This document shows positions 1 through 36,925 of a stretch of 40,118 bases of DNA, piece by piece; positions within the stretch are counted from its first letter, which is position 1, and every line of letters begins with the position of its first letter. A program made the translations under genes and the position numbers. Under the pieces are notes generated by a model. That model made no database searches, had not been told where the DNA came from, and saw only the letters and a list, made by a program, of their open reading frames with translations. Where the stretch lies: assembly GCA_004297655.1 (NCBI GenBank), contig SCUN01000192.1, forward strand, positions 1 through 40,118, written 5' to 3'. The DNA is from Acidobacteriota bacterium. Lineage in GTDB: Bacteria; Acidobacteriota; Vicinamibacteria; Vicinamibacterales; SCN-69-37.

Positions 1-462
1 TCGATCCAGGAGCGGTACGCGAAGTACAAGGTCACCGATCCCGAGCGCCAGAAGATGAACCAGGAAATGATGGCGCTCTACAAGGAAAACGGCGTGAACC
101 CGGCCAGCGGCTGTGTGCCGATGCTGCTGACGCTGCCGATCCTGTTCGCGTTCTACTCGCTGCTCGCGATGTCGATCGAGCTCCGCCATGCCCCGTTCGT
201 GGGGTACATCGCGGACCTGTCGCGCCCGGACGTCTACTACGTCACGCCGATCCTGATGGGCTTGTCGATGTTCTGGCAGCAGAAGATGATGCCGACGACG
301 GCCGATCCGCTGCAGCAGAAGATGTTCCTGTTTATGCCGCTGATCTTCACGTTCAGCTTCCTCTGGGCGCCGAGCGGGCTTGTGTTGTATTGGCTTTCAA
401 GTAACCTGCTCGCCATCGGCCAGCAGTATGTGACCAACCGTCTTACCGGAGATGCTCGATGA
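1..462 (+). CDS. yidC: YidC/Oxa1 membrane protein insertase, C-terminal part (5' end outside window)
   Basis: This is the last 153 codons of the Sec-associated inner-membrane insertase, which helps membrane proteins (including ATP synthase F0 subunits) enter the bilayer. The reading frame is open from base 1, so the N-terminal periplasmic domain and first membrane segments lie outside. Visible are the cytoplasmic stretch ending in [16 protein letters not shown], the conserved [19 protein letters not shown] membrane segment, a periplasmic loop, a [20 protein letters not shown] segment and a final hydrophobic hairpin before a short tail. The stop codon overlaps the jag start in an ATGA arrangement (459-462), so the two are probably translationally coupled. 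The neighbours jag, mnmE, mnmG and rsmG are the usual origin-proximal set. The identification is secure; only the missing start is uncertain. Confidence 0.97.
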
Positions 463-914
463 GCGAATTCGACGATCGTGTCATTAACTTTCTTCAGGAC
501 GTGACGGGCGCCATGGGCCTGACCCTGGACGTCGCGACCGAAGAGACGCCGGATCATGTTCGGCTCAATCTCACCGGCGAAGGCGCCGATGTGTTTCTCC
601 GCCGCAAGGGCGAGCCGCTCGATGCGCTCCAAGTCATCGTGAACACGGCGTTTCGCCGCGAAGACCGCGGGGAGCGCCACTACGTCGTCGACGTGCAGGG
701 CTTCCGCAAGGAGCAGGACGAGGAGCTTCGCACGAAGGCCCGCGAACTCGCCGCCAAGGTTCAGGCCTCAGGGGAAGAGGAAGAACTGGGCCCGCTCAAT
801 CCGTACGCGCGCCGCATCGTCCACCTCGCCGTGGCCGAGAATCCGGCCGTCACGACCGAGAGCTTCGGCGAAGACCTGCTGAAGACAATTGTCATCTCGC
901 TAAAACGGGCCTAG
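459..914 (+). CDS. jag: Jag/KhpB RNA-binding protein (KH and R3H domains)
   Basis: A 151-residue single-strand nucleic acid-binding protein. The central KH-like region contains [21 protein letters not shown] (around residues 47-67), and the C-terminal R3H domain contains [15 protein letters not shown], with the RxxxH spacing, at about residues 114-128. The N-terminal Jag_N extension of Firmicutes homologues is absent, so this is the short form. In Firmicutes the family (KhpB/EloR) binds RNA and influences cell elongation and division; that role is not proven here. The ATG start overlaps the yidC stop by ATGA, supporting co-translation, and yidC-jag is a very widely conserved pair. A REPIN-like inverted repeat lies directly after the stop. 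Confidence 0.93.
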
Positions 915-924
915 AGACTTCCGA

Positions 925-979
925 GCCGGAGCCAAGCTCCGGCCTACTTCGGATGTAGGCCGGGACTTCGGTCCCGGCC
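925..979. repeat. REPIN-like pair of GTAG-tagged REP palindromes
   Basis: Two hairpins lie in inverted orientation between jag and mnmE. The first has arms GCCGGAGC (925-932) and GCTCCGGC (936-943) followed by CTAC (944-947), i.e. GTAG on the minus strand. The second starts with GTAG (955-958) and has 9-bp arms GGCCGGGAC (958-966) and GTCCCGGCC (971-979) around TTCG. A GTAG-type tetranucleotide next to a palindrome is the hallmark of REP elements mobilised by RAYT (TnpA-REP) proteins, and two in inverted orientation form a REPIN. The second palindrome closely matches one inside dsbD (36009-36032). It fills most of the 76-bp gap before mnmE. Confidence 0.75.
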
Positions 980-990
980 GAAAGCATCCG

Positions 991-2364
991 ATGTTTGCCA
1001 CCGACGACACGATCGTTGCGATTGCCACCCCGCCCGGCCGCGGCGGATTGGGCGTCGTGCGCGTGTCCGGGCCCCGCGCCCTTGAAATCGCCCAGTCGCT
1101 GATCTCTCGCCAGGCGCCGCTCGAGCCCCGCGTCGCGACCCACACCTACATTCGAGAAAAAACGACATCGGGTGTCGTTTTTTTGGAAACTCCGGTTGAC
1201 GAGGTGGTGGCGACGTATTTCGCCAACCCCCACTCCTACACGGGGGAAGACGTCATCGAGATCAGCGGGCATGGCAGCCCCGTTCTGCTCGAGCGCATCG
1301 TCCAACTCGCCCTCGCGGCCGGCGCGCGATTGGCGGAACCCGGCGAATTTACGCTCCGGGCGTATTTGAACGGCCGAATGGACCTGGTCCAGGCGGAGGC
1401 CGTCGCCGACCTGATCGACGCGGTCACGCCGCAACAGGCGCGCGCCGCGATGGATCAGCTCGACGGGACGGTGACCGGCGCGATCAAAAAGATCGACGCC
1501 GCGCTCTTCAGCCTGATCGCCCGCTGCGAAGCGTCGCTGGATTTCCCCGACGAGGGATTTCATTTCATTCAGCAAGCCGAAGTGCGATCCACGCTGTCGT
1601 CAATTGCCGACGACCTGCGCGCGCTCATTGCGACGGCGTCGCGCGGGCGATTGCTCCGCGAAGGCAGAACGGTCGTCATCGTAGGCCGGCCAAATACCGG
1701 AAAGTCGAGCCTGTTCAATGCGCTGCTCGGCAGAAACCGCGCGATCGTGACGCCGATTCCCGGGACCACGCGCGACGTGCTGTCGGAGCAAATCGACGTA
1801 CTCGGCGTGCCGGTCACGTTGATCGACACCGCGGGCCTTCGCGAAAGCCACGATCCAATCGAACGGGAAGGTGTGGCACGGGCCGGCGAAGCGCGGGCCG
1901 CCGCAGCGATGACCCTGCTCGTTCTTGATGGATCGAGCGAACTCACTGCCGACGACGACTTCCTTCTCAATGAGCCAACAAAGGGGCGCCGCGTGATCGC
2001 GATCAGCAAAGCCGATCTCCCGCCCGGCATGGTCCCCCAGTTCGTCGCTCCAGAGGGCATCACCGTCTCGGCGACGACGGGGTTTGGATTGGACGAACTT
2101 CGTGAAGCGATTGTCCGGGAGGTCTCGAGTCAGGACGACCGGCGCGACACCCCGATGCTGACCAATATTCGCCACATCGCATTGGCGCAGTCGGCGCTCG
2201 ACGCGGCGGCGCGCGCGCTCGCGGCGCTCGATCGCGGCGCCACCGAAGAACTGCTGCTCGTCGACCTGCACGATGCCCGTCATTCCCTCGAGGACATCAC
2301 GGGAACACGGACGATCGATGACGTGCTGTTGCACATCTTCACGAGGTTCTGCGTCGGGAAATGA
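991..2364 (+). CDS. mnmE: tRNA uridine-5-carboxymethylaminomethyl modification GTPase MnmE
   Basis: This GTPase works with MnmG to put the carboxymethylaminomethyl group on U34 of certain tRNAs. The 457-residue protein has the N-terminal tetrahydrofolate-binding domain (TDDTIVAIATPPGRGGLGVVRVSG, SYTGEDVIEISGHG), a helical domain, and an inserted G domain with P-loop GRPNTGKSS (about 232-240), PGTTRD, DTAG and SKAD motifs. It ends in the catalytic C-terminal FCVGK. ATG 991 gives the canonical N-terminus; no good Shine-Dalgarno is visible because a REPIN sits just upstream. The stop overlaps the mnmG start (ATGA). Compared from memory with E. coli MnmE, there are roughly 7-9 extra residues near 56-64, exactly where a perfect hairpin repeat (1157-1183) is translated. 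Confidence 0.97.
   Translation: MFATDDTIVAIATPPGRGGLGVVRVSGPRALEIAQSLISRQAPLEPRVATHTYIREKTTSGVVFLETPVDEVVATYFANPHSYTGEDVIEISGHGSPVLLERIVQLALAAGARLAEPGEFTLRAYLNGRMDLVQAEAVADLIDAVTPQQARAAMDQLDGTVTGAIKKIDAALFSLIARCEASLDFPDEGFHFIQQAEVRSTLSSIADDLRALIATASRGRLLREGRTVVIVGRPNTGKSSLFNALLGRNRAIVTPIPGTTRDVLSEQIDVLGVPVTLIDTAGLRESHDPIEREGVARAGEARAAAAMTLLVLDGSSELTADDDFLLNEPTKGRRVIAISKADLPPGMVPQFVAPEGITVSATTGFGLDELREAIVREVSSQDDRRDTPMLTNIRHIALAQSALDAAARALAALDRGATEELLLVDLHDARHSLEDITGTRTIDDVLLHIFTRFCVGK
1157..1183. repeat. Terminator-like perfect hairpin read through inside mnmE
   Basis: The 11-bp arms AAAAAACGACA (1157-1167) and TGTCGTTTTTT (1173-1183) flank the loop TCGGG. A-tract, stem and U-tract give the look of a bidirectional intrinsic terminator, but the whole element lies in mnmE and is translated as EKTTSGVVFL. 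It probably represents a short mobile palindrome tolerated in a surface loop; that origin is inference. Confidence 0.7.
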
Positions 2365-14073: not shown

Positions 14074-15407
14074 TGAAGACCGCGCCGGCGATCGAGCTCG
14101 TTGACGTCACCAAGATCTACCGGCGTTACGGCGGAAAACAGTACGCGACGCTGAAGAGCGCGCTCCTCCAGCGTTCCATCCTTCGGGAAATGAACCCGAA
14201 GGACACGTTCCAGGCGCTGAAGAACGTCTCGTTCAACGTGCCGGCCGGTTCAACGTTCGCGGTGGTCGGCCGAAACGGTTCCGGCAAGAGCACCGCGCTC
14301 AAGCTCGTCGCCGGCATCACGAAGCCGACGAGCGGCACCGTCAGCGTCACCGGCCGGATCTCGGCGCTGATCGAGCTCGGCGCGGGATTTCACCCGGAGA
14401 TTTCCGGCCGAGAGAATGTTTTCATCAACGGCATCATGCTCGGTCTCTCGAAGCGCGAAGTCGCGGAACGCTTCGACGAGATCGTGGAGTTCGCCGAGCT
14501 GAAGGACTTCATCGACGCGCCGGTCAAGACCTACTCGTCCGGCATGTACATGCGGTTGGGCTTTGCCGTGGCGATCCATGTCGACCCCGACGTGCTGCTG
14601 GTCGATGAAGTGCTTGCGGTTGGCGACGAGGGCTTCACGCACAAGTGCCTCGACAAGTTTTCTGAATTCAAGCGACGCGGCAAGACGATCCTGCTCGTCA
14701 CGCACTCGCTCGGTTTGGTCGAGCGGTTCTGCGACGAGGCCATCTGGCTCGATCATGGCGAGAAGCTGGCTGAGGGCGATCCCAAGCGCGTGATCGGCGC
14801 GTACCTGATGGACGTCGAGTCGGCCGAAGAGGGCTATCTCGCGCAGGAAGACGCGAAGGCCAAAGAAGAGGTCGCGGAGGATAAGGGGTCAGTCCCTGAA
14901 GTTCAGGGACAGACCCCATCCGAACCCCAGAACATGTTTCAGGCGAACGAGGGCCGCTGGGGATCCGGGGGCGTGACGATCACCGGCGTGACGCTTCGCG
15001 ACCAGACCGGCGAGGCCGGCCACGTGTTTCACAGCGGCGAGCCAATGTCGATCGAACTGGCCGTGAAGGCCGACAAGCCATGCGACGACTTTGTGTTCGG
15101 CATTGCGATGTTCAACACGGACGGCACCTGCGTGTACGGCACCAATACGGACATCGAGGGGTATGCCGCCGAGTCATTGATCAGCGAGGCGACCGTCAAT
15201 TTCGGGATTGAGGCGCTCGATTTGGTCGAAGGCACTTACAAGCTGGACGTCGCCGTGCATCGCAAGGACGGCGCGCCGTATGACTACCATCGGCTGCTTT
15301 ACACCTTCCGCGTCAAGTCGCGAACGAAGGACGCCGGCATCTACCGGCCGCGCCACCACTGGTCGTTCTCGGAGTCGGCAAGACTCAAGCGCACGACCGA
15401 GAACTAG
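14073..15407 (+). CDS. wzt: Polysaccharide/O-antigen ABC exporter, ATPase with C-terminal carbohydrate-binding domain (Wzt-type)
   Basis: A 444-residue protein. Residues about 1-245 are an ABC ATPase with Walker A GRNGSGKST (66-74), the SALIELGAGFHPEISGRENVF Q-loop region typical of glycan exporters, signature YSSGMYMRLGFAVA, Walker B LLVDEVLAVGD and an H-loop THSLG. Residues about 300-430 form a Wzt_C beta-sandwich (GVTITGVTLRDQ, FGIAMFNTDGTCVYGTNTDI) that recognises a capped glycan end. The linker contains KGSVPEVQGQTP, encoded by a 33-bp palindrome (14885-14917). It overlaps wzm by one base (TAATG). Carrying its own glycan-binding domain makes it a Wzt-like, not KpsT-like, ATPase. Confidence 0.94.
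   Translation: MKTAPAIELVDVTKIYRRYGGKQYATLKSALLQRSILREMNPKDTFQALKNVSFNVPAGSTFAVVGRNGSGKSTALKLVAGITKPTSGTVSVTGRISALIELGAGFHPEISGRENVFINGIMLGLSKREVAERFDEIVEFAELKDFIDAPVKTYSSGMYMRLGFAVAIHVDPDVLLVDEVLAVGDEGFTHKCLDKFSEFKRRGKTILLVTHSLGLVERFCDEAIWLDHGEKLAEGDPKRVIGAYLMDVESAEEGYLAQEDAKAKEEVAEDKGSVPEVQGQTPSEPQNMFQANEGRWGSGGVTITGVTLRDQTGEAGHVFHSGEPMSIELAVKADKPCDDFVFGIAMFNTDGTCVYGTNTDIEGYAAESLISEATVNFGIEALDLVEGTYKLDVAVHRKDGAPYDYHRLLYTFRVKSRTKDAGIYRPRHHWSFSESARLKRTTEN
14885..14917. repeat. 33-bp palindrome read in frame within the wzt linker
   Basis: The left arm (14885-14900, beginning GGGGTCAGTCCC) and right arm (14902-14917, ending GGGACAGACCCC) pair over 16 bp with a single mismatch around one central base. 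It encodes linker residues between the ATPase and carbohydrate-binding domains. Such a near-perfect palindrome is not needed for the protein and looks like an inserted short mobile repeat. Confidence 0.72.
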
Positions 15408-35138: not shown

Positions 35139-36878
35139 CTACCGGGATTTGACGATGGCGTACGCCGGCAGACCCACGGCGTTGAAGCGCTGCATCACGG
35201 CCTTGACCTCAGGCGCGTCCAGATCTTCGGCCTGGAACTTGATCTTCACGTAATTAGCCAGCGCCGCCTTCACTTGCGGATCGGCGAGCGTGGTCTTGTC
35301 CATCGTGAGGCAGTTCTTGCACCACGTGGCCCACATGTCGATGAGGACGGGCTGGCCCGTGGCGACCGCCGTCCGGAGTCCCTCGTCCAACGTTGAGTAC
35401 CAGCCCTCTTTCAGTTTCTCGGCGGCGCTGGCCTGCACATCCGCCGTGTTGACCCAGCGGTTCGACAGGATCTCGTAGGTCAGGTAGCCGTAATACGCGG
35501 CCGTGGCGAGGATGAAAACCCCGAACGCGTACTTCACGCGATTCATCCAGGCGCCCGGCTTCGGGAGCCGCGAGAGGCCCGCGCCGGCGATCGGCCACGG
35601 TAGCGCCATCCCCAGTCCCAACACGAAGGGCAGCGCCAGCGCGATCGACGACCCCTTCGCATAGAGATCGCTCGCGAAGATCACGACCTGGATCACGACC
35701 GGCGCGACACAGGCGCCAGCGAGCAGCGCCGCAATCGCGCCCATGCCGAACGCCAGCGCGAACGATCCGCGACTCACGCCGCTGAACTGGAATCGGCTCG
35801 ACCACTTCGAGAAGTCGATCACGCCGATGTCGAACATCGCGAGACCCAGCACGACAAACAGCACGGCGATGGCGGCATTGAACCAGGGCGACGAGTTGAT
35901 CGCGCCGAACGTGCCGGCAGTGAGAATGACGATGAGCCCGATGACGCCGTAGACGAGCGCCATCGCCGCGCCGTAGGCGGAGCCCAGCAGAAAGCCGCGG
36001 CGCTTTGCGCCGGGACTGAAGTCCCGGCCTACATTCGCGCCGGCCCCGATGATTGCGAGGTTGATCGGAATCATCGGCAACACGCATGGGGTGAGGTTCA
36101 GCGCGAGGCCGCCGAGGAACACCAGCAGCAGGATCGCGATCGGGCCCTGGCCTTGAAACGGGCCCGAGGCTTTGACGCCGGCCTCCGCATCGCGGATAAA
36201 CGCGAGGAAGGTCCCAGCATTCATGTAGCCGCCGGCCACGCCTCGGGTTTCGAAGCCTTCGAGGCTGGTAAGCGGGTTCGCGGGTGAGGGGGTGAGTTGG
36301 TGATCAGGTGAGCTTGGTGCGGCGACCACGGCCTTGTCGCCGTTGCCAAACGTGATTGCCCGGAACACTTCGGCGTTCGATGCCGTTTCAACGGCGCCGA
36401 TCGGAATCGCCCATGTGACCGGCACCGTGACCGGCCGGAAACACAGGAGGTTGTTGCAGGGCTGATAGCGCAGGCGCGCGTTGAGTGTGACCGAACCGGC
36501 AGCCGATGCGCTGACATTGGCCGTGACGCCGACGATGAACTCGCGCTCGAAGACGAGCAGCATGTCGCCGGATTCGAGCTTGAAGTCCTTGGCCGGTGGG
36601 AAAACGACTTCCGACGGCGTGATCGCGGGATTCGGTTCGAATGTCAGCGACGTCGGGATGAGCGATTCGTCTTTCGGTTTGTTCGACTGCGCGTGCAGGC
36701 CTTCCGGTAGCACGACTCGAAGCGCGAGTCTGACCGTGGAGCCCGGCCGCGCCGCCGAGACCGACGACAGCGGCTCGATCGTGGCCGAGGCGGGCGATTG
36801 CGCGAAGGCCGGGACAGACAGAAGCAGCGCCGCGGCCGCGCCGAGAACGATTCGCATATGTGTGACTACGCGGCTCAT
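35139..36878 (-). CDS. dsbD: Thiol:disulfide interchange protein DsbD
   Basis: A 579-residue protein that carries electrons from cytoplasmic thioredoxin to periplasmic disulfide partners. The signal peptide is HMRIVLGAAAALLLSVPAFA. The N-terminal DsbD-alpha immunoglobulin-like domain has the Cys pair in YQPCNNLLCF. The membrane domain has about eight helices with Cys in TPCVLPMIPINLAI and GACVAPVV. The C-terminal thioredoxin-like domain has WCKNC in DMWATWCKNCLTMDKTTL. All six expected cysteines are present. ATG 36857 is an alternative start with a shorter n-region. The loop after the first membrane-domain Cys helix contains VGRDFSPGA, encoded by a REP element (36009-36032). A low-complexity linker lies at about 36270-36320. 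Confidence 0.93.
   Translation of the reverse strand: MSRVVTHMRIVLGAAAALLLSVPAFAQSPASATIEPLSSVSAARPGSTVRLALRVVLPEGLHAQSNKPKDESLIPTSLTFEPNPAITPSEVVFPPAKDFKLESGDMLLVFEREFIVGVTANVSASAAGSVTLNARLRYQPCNNLLCFRPVTVPVTWAIPIGAVETASNAEVFRAITFGNGDKAVVAAPSSPDHQLTPSPANPLTSLEGFETRGVAGGYMNAGTFLAFIRDAEAGVKASGPFQGQGPIAILLLVFLGGLALNLTPCVLPMIPINLAIIGAGANVGRDFSPGAKRRGFLLGSAYGAAMALVYGVIGLIVILTAGTFGAINSSPWFNAAIAVLFVVLGLAMFDIGVIDFSKWSSRFQFSGVSRGSFALAFGMGAIAALLAGACVAPVVIQVVIFASDLYAKGSSIALALPFVLGLGMALPWPIAGAGLSRLPKPGAWMNRVKYAFGVFILATAAYYGYLTYEILSNRWVNTADVQASAAEKLKEGWYSTLDEGLRTAVATGQPVLIDMWATWCKNCLTMDKTTLADPQVKAALANYVKIKFQAEDLDAPEVKAVMQRFNAVGLPAYAIVKSR
36009..36032 (-). repeat. REP element inserted in frame in dsbD
   Basis: On the minus strand GTAG (36032-36029) precedes the arms GCCGGGAC and GTCCCGGC with loop TTCA. 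It matches the second REP of the REPIN at 955-979 except at the loop and arm ends. It is read as VGRDFSPG in a cytoplasmic loop of the DsbD membrane domain. An intact reading frame after insertion implies selection for a length divisible by three. Confidence 0.8.
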
Positions 36879-36897: not shown

Positions 36898-36925
36898 GGC
36901 GGCCTTCGAGATCAGGCCGCCCTAC
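36898..36925 (-). repeat. REP-like hairpin at the nuoG stop / nuoG-dsbD junction
   Basis: On the minus strand GTAG (36925-36922) is followed by arms GGCGGCCT (36921-36914) and AGGCCGCC (36905-36898) around an 8-base loop. The TAG of the tag is the nuoG stop codon. The hairpin could also stabilise or terminate the nuoG mRNA. Confidence 0.68.

Follow-up and report, generated by a model that had tools for sequence, protein, structure and literature searches.

The window, by which we mean the whole 40,118-nt stretch that was analyzed, comes from a MAG of 2.79 Mb in 362 contigs (82% complete; sampled G+C content, 63%) of the Vicinamibacterales (Acidobacteriota). A jag/khpB-type gene and mnmE lie on the same strand with a gap of 76 nt between them, and mnmE overlaps its neighbor mnmG. 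Most of the gap is taken up by two palindromes; the first begins 10 nt after the jag stop codon, and the second ends 12 nt before the mnmE ATG. The features referred to below are as follows.

459–914, plus strand: R3H-domain gene of the jag/khpB type (Pfam PF01424), stop codon TAG at 912–914
925–947, minus strand: REP unit 1, subfamily A, 8-bp stem, 3-nt loop, tag GTAG at 944–947 (CTAC on the plus strand), from the sequence and an unbiased hairpin scan
948–954, no strand: spacer TTCGGAT of the tail-to-tail (TT) dimer, from the sequence and the RNA fold
955–978, plus strand: REP unit 2, subfamily A, 8-bp stem, loop TTCG, tag GTAG at 955–958, from the whole-genome pattern search and the fold
991–2364, plus strand: mnmE (Pfam MnmE_helical and TrmE_N; alignment with relatives)
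1157–1183, plus strand: non-GTAG palindrome AAAAAACGACATCGGGTGTCGTTTTTT within mnmE, core AAACGACATCGGGTGTCGTTT at 1160–1180
35139–36878, minus strand: dsbD-type thiol:disulfide interchange gene (Pfam DsbD_TM, DsbD_N, and Thioredoxin_7)
36009–36032, minus strand: REP copy of subfamily A, in frame within dsbD at about residues 283–290 (NVGRDFSPGA)
36898–36925, minus strand: GTAG hairpin of subfamily C, 8-bp stem, 8-nt loop GATCTCGA

Unit 1 reads GTAG-GCCGGAGC-TTG-GCTCCGGC on the minus strand (925–947; on the plus strand, GCCGGAGC-CAA-GCTCCGGC followed by CTAC), and unit 2 reads GTAG-GCCGGGAC-TTCG-GTCCCGGC on the plus strand (955–978), where C979 could form one extra pair with the final G of the tag. 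Each unit is thus a perfect palindrome of short length that carries GTAG, unpaired, on one side, which is the form of a GTAG REP, and 925–978 is the longest entry in the window's inverted-repeat list. The two tags that the first-pass annotation described as pointing toward one another can be read directly in this sequence, but the REPIN architecture that it assigned to them does not hold. By the terms of PMC3733652, GTAG lies outside in head-to-head (HH) dimers and inside in TT dimers; the tags of units 1 and 2 face each other across 7 nt, and the pair is therefore a TT dimer. REPINs of the Pseudomonas type are likewise inverted REP pairs, but they are HH, with their tags outside, and the label was dropped for 925–978 because of this orientation.

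The RNA fold of 915–993 reached −47.8 kcal/mol, compared with −26.9 (SD, 3.3) for shuffled sequences (z = −6.4), and in this fold the spacer at 948–954 pairs with the bases immediately 5′ of the mnmE start codon. By one strict definition, the window contains three GTAG hairpins, whereas 200 random sequences from a Markov-1 model averaged 0.015. Further copies had been noted at 36009 and 36898, and both are real. The copy at 36009 belongs to subfamily A and lies inside dsbD; that at 36898 was discarded as a member of subfamily A, since its stem and loop differ and place it in subfamily C, which has about a dozen copies.

A family of GTAG hairpins in the genome

Copy numbers were obtained by pattern searches of the whole genome, and the surveys of hairpins, flanks, and ORFs covered about 0.75 to 0.95 Mb of contigs. 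The searches gave at least 160 GTAG hairpins, with two main stem subfamilies (A and B), and the tag was unbroken in nearly all of 160 dispersed copies. The first-pass annotation had left the size of the family to such a count; the copies are far from few, and their GTAG is conserved. With 3 mismatches allowed at most, a 24-nt pattern matched 33 sites and its reversed form 0. The degenerate pattern for subfamily A, GTAGGCCGGRRCTTYAGYYCCGGC, matched 66 sites, or 67 when the one-base-shorter left unit of the 925–978 pair is counted, and that for subfamily B, GTAGCCGSNGGGCTTYAGCCCNSCGG, matched 93, with zero matches for the reversed patterns of both subfamilies in the whole-genome search. Subfamily C, which has an 8-nt loop and includes the hairpin at 36898, had 12 sites at up to 2 mismatches; only these closer copies were counted because the reversed control gave 5 sites at 3 mismatches.

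In addition, a hairpin scan that assumed no particular stem was applied to the window and to 753 kb of contigs chosen in order of contig number; contigs added because they carried REPs were excluded from this enrichment test and included in the ORF survey. Next to perfect hairpins of at least 8 bp, no other 4-mer was as frequent as GTAG, which was present on 38 of 546 sides (runner-up, 14). Its frequency predicts about 1.0, and the enrichment was therefore about 38-fold (Poisson P of about 1e-45).

The subfamilies differed in the geometry of their pairs. Neighboring subfamily-A copies within 100 nt formed 13 TT, 7 HH, and 10 head-to-tail (HT) pairs, with TT gaps mostly of 6 to 14 nt, so that the TT arrangement with a gap of 7 nt at 925–978 is typical of this subfamily, whose commonest dimer is TT. 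The neighboring subfamily-B copies formed 31 HH pairs (25 with a gap of 4 nt, the modal value), 6 TT pairs, and 3 HT pairs; by pair geometry, subfamily B, not A, is the REPIN-like subfamily. Another 33 REPs were solitary, with no neighbor within 100 nt. The base 5′ of GTAG was C or T in 53 of 56 subfamily-A copies, which perhaps reflects a target or cleavage preference, and the flanks of these copies showed no other clear cleavage motif. The corresponding bases in the 925–978 pair are A and T, and its loops (TTG and TTCG) are variants; these two features suggest that the pair may be old and immobile.

RAYT genes and their flanking repeats

A profile search with PF01797 found four Y1 genes in the genome. 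One of them, on contig 235, encodes a RAYT of 155 aa and is flanked by subfamily-A REPs, four in tandem upstream and four downstream. A Y1/RAYT gene between the same palindromes, which the first-pass annotation had proposed to look for, is thus present, and the arrangement of an HUH/Y1 RAYT gene between its own REPs is that of a REPtron. The protein scores 94.2 on NF047646, the NCBIfam model of REP-associated tyrosine transposases (cutoff, 80), and matches the E. coli TnpArep structure 4er8 with an E value of 3.6e-6. It retains DHAH (the HUH motif, from residue 62), LWQ, and YILNNP (Tyr121), and was judged to be intact. No RAYT specific to subfamily B or C was found in the 82% complete MAG. 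The other RAYT-like genes, on contigs 201, 309, and 144 (L031, L032, and L033, respectively), score 51.6 to 68.5 on NF047646, below the cutoff, and each lies between inverted repeats of a separate kind that have no relation to the GTAG REPs.

The distribution of the palindromes was examined in 14 genomes of the family. In the source genome (G000), the subfamily-A pattern had 66 matches. Of two genomes from the same genus, G005 had 7 matches and G006 had 0; the 3 matches in G008 and G012 carried altered tags. Among the 14 genomes, the closest relatives of the contig 235 RAYT were those of G013 (48% identity) and G010 (47%), which belong to another genus. At these RAYT loci (L296 and L297), the flanking repeat is another GTAG palindrome, which has a 7-nt loop and whose pattern, GTAGGGCSCGCT...AGCGSGCC, had 201 copies in G013, 195 in G010, and 0 in the other 12 genomes. 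Such lineage-specific matching of RAYT and palindrome is the expectation for a REPtron. The restriction of high copy numbers to particular lineages also fits the earlier suggestion of an active or recent REP family. In a sample of the order, NF047646 matched in 94 of 149 genomes, above the cutoff in 54, and at least two GTAG hairpins with like stems were found at 8 of the 32 RAYT loci examined (best other tag, 4), the stem being specific to the locus.

Interpretation of the pair before mnmE

On the strength of the repeat family, its copy number, the conservation of the tag, the dimer geometry, the REPtron, and the lineage-wise pairing of RAYT and palindrome, we consider it very likely that 925–979 is a TT dimer of GTAG-type REPs spread by a RAYT, the likely enzyme being the 155-aa protein encoded on contig 235. 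REP palindromes would be nonautonomous elements whose single-stranded hairpins are recognized by the RAYT, an HUH/Y1 tyrosine transposase also called TnpA-REP, for which the 5′ GTAG would be the recognition and guide tag. Cleavage and rejoining by the enzyme would have dispersed the element through this Vicinamibacterales lineage, and one dimer would have ended in the short jag-mnmE gap. Binding, cleavage, and mobilization are attributed to the contig 235 RAYT by analogy with studied relatives: single-strand REP binding and cleavage are known for the E. coli, S. maltophilia, and Marinomonas enzymes, and E. coli TnpA-REP recognizes single-stranded REP hairpins, cleaves at CT 5′ or 3′ of the hairpin, and requires GTAG, probably as a guide for cleavage (PMC8266576).

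Alternatively, the palindromes could act in cis in the regulation or processing of the jag-mnmE message, be retained for this function, and resemble REPs only in form. The strong RNA fold, which ends 2 nt before the AUG, agrees with this, as does one same-genus relative whose jag-mnmE spacer looks palindromic, with another sequence. However, more than 60 sites unrelated to this one carry the same palindrome, and the spacers of relatives differ in sequence and are mostly shorter, so we regard this explanation as very improbable. A transcription terminator between jag and mnmE, to which GC-rich hairpins within an intergenic gap might point, is less probable still and was rejected: neither hairpin is followed by a T-run, and the common strand of jag, mnmE, and mnmG, the 76-nt gap, and the mnmE/mnmG overlap suggest one transcript. 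Short GC palindromes are common at 63% G+C, but the null result with reversed patterns and the enrichment of the tag refute chance palindromes, leaving them a negligible probability.

For the REP dimer, an effect on mnmE is probably small, although a hairpin in the mRNA leader may tune mnmE stability or translation, and a modest effect is possible. The pair had been thought to replace the 5′ region of mnmE, which is incorrect: MnmE starts normally, and its intact N terminus (MFATDDTI) aligns with relatives, the best named of which are from Acidobacteria/Vicinamibacterales MAGs (53 to 58% identity). The accompanying remark that no Shine-Dalgarno sequence is visible was right, but displacement of such a sequence was rejected; inspection by eye found no clear one in the jag-mnmE spacers of five relatives with a readable spacer either, and its absence is thus not caused by the REPs.

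The system resembles known ones. GTAG REP families 1 to 24 (Di Nocera et al. 2013, PMC3733652) likewise consist of palindromes of 20 to 40 bp with an unpaired 5′ GTAG and a short TY-type loop, and they also occur as singletons, HH and TT dimers, and clusters, with some copies in genes and with REP-flanked RAYTs; the comparison covers this general organization. The hosts listed for those families differ, being Proteobacteria, Cyanobacteria, Chloroflexi, and PVC. The REPtrons of E. coli, S. maltophilia, and Marinomonas (PMC8266576; PDB 4er8) similarly have an HUH/Y1 gene between its own GTAG REPs, and the S. maltophilia type of REP is a perfect palindrome, as here. The E. coli TnpA-REP of 4er8 is distant in sequence from the contig 235 RAYT. 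The acidobacterial enzymes in PMC3733652 are “TIRYTs” with unrelated terminal repeats, and the literature on Acidobacteria (PMC3733652 and PMC6006769) describes TIR-flanked or class 3 RAYT relatives. In a search whose coverage excluded most subscription journals, we found no report of GTAG REPs in Acidobacteria; the system therefore appears to be of a known type, apparently new to Acidobacteriota. Thus GTAG REPs with a RAYT are extended to this phylum, and a natural series of RAYT/REP pairs emerges in which one enzyme lineage is accompanied by a palindrome that varies by genus, each amplified in its own genome. The consequence for the mnmE site itself is probably small; the analysis also yields a catalogue of in-frame REP insertions in conserved genes.

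Palindromes inside genes

On the surveyed contigs, 26 of 56 subfamily-A copies lay inside an ORF of at least 150 codons, which is an upper bound because it was obtained without gene calling. The survey used simple ORFs and Pfam, with proteins picked from the longest ORFs. Genes for essential proteins were among those carrying copies, and in these examples the in-frame REPs lay mostly between domains, an apparent preference for linkers. At the 36009 copy, DsbD is 6 residues longer than 9 of 10 orthologues and 5 longer than the tenth; the stretch reads IIGAGANVGRDFSPGAKRRGF in the window protein and IIGAGARA-GSRRRGF or similar in most orthologues. In the LeuRS gene (L259, 719–3298 on contig 331), three tandem REPs encode residues 659 to 684 and add about 15 to 18 residues relative to eleven readable relatives. 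Both the dsbD and LeuRS insertions are missing in relatives, of which the nearest are just about 70 to 86% identical in protein. Other subfamily-A copies were located between or just past Pfam domain matches in DnaX, ClpA, SucA, an S-methyltransferase/MTHFR fusion, and an alanine-racemase-like protein, and others again lay within a domain match, e.g., in a beta-lactamase-family protein. In-frame palindromes in conserved genes are also known from Rickettsia conorii palindromic elements and the intragenic REPs of Opitutus terrae (PMC3733652); R. conorii RPE-4/6, however, has a CGTC tag and no associated transposase, in contrast to the GTAG tag and RAYT found here.

A second palindrome family, without GTAG, is represented within mnmE itself. 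The AAACGACATCGGGTGTCGTTT family has about 50 genomic sites, mostly inverted pairs about 5 or 18 nt apart, and paired copies lie on both sides of the contig 201 RAYT (L031). The mnmE copy stands alone, and the loop that contains it differs in length from one relative to another; its insertion into mnmE is therefore likely. A broader proposal would be that, in this lineage of Acidobacteriota, several RAYT-linked palindrome families insert in frame in essential proteins, mostly at interdomain linkers, and act as a standing source of linkers that is sometimes selected, beyond tolerated debris; we consider this unlikely.

Two further cases of intragenic palindromes were observed. The AAACGAC palindrome occurs at about residue 79 of two protein kinase genes (L207 on contig 63 and L199 on contig 55), within the kinase domain match. 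A Wzt-like ABC transporter gene contains an in-frame inverted repeat, GGGGTCAGTCCCTGAA / TTCAGGGACAGACCCC (14885–14917), which separates its ABC and Wzt_C domain matches; this repeat, which had 0 further copies in about 0.95 Mb of contigs, is similar to the GGGGWSAS motif that PMC3733652 gives for TIRs.
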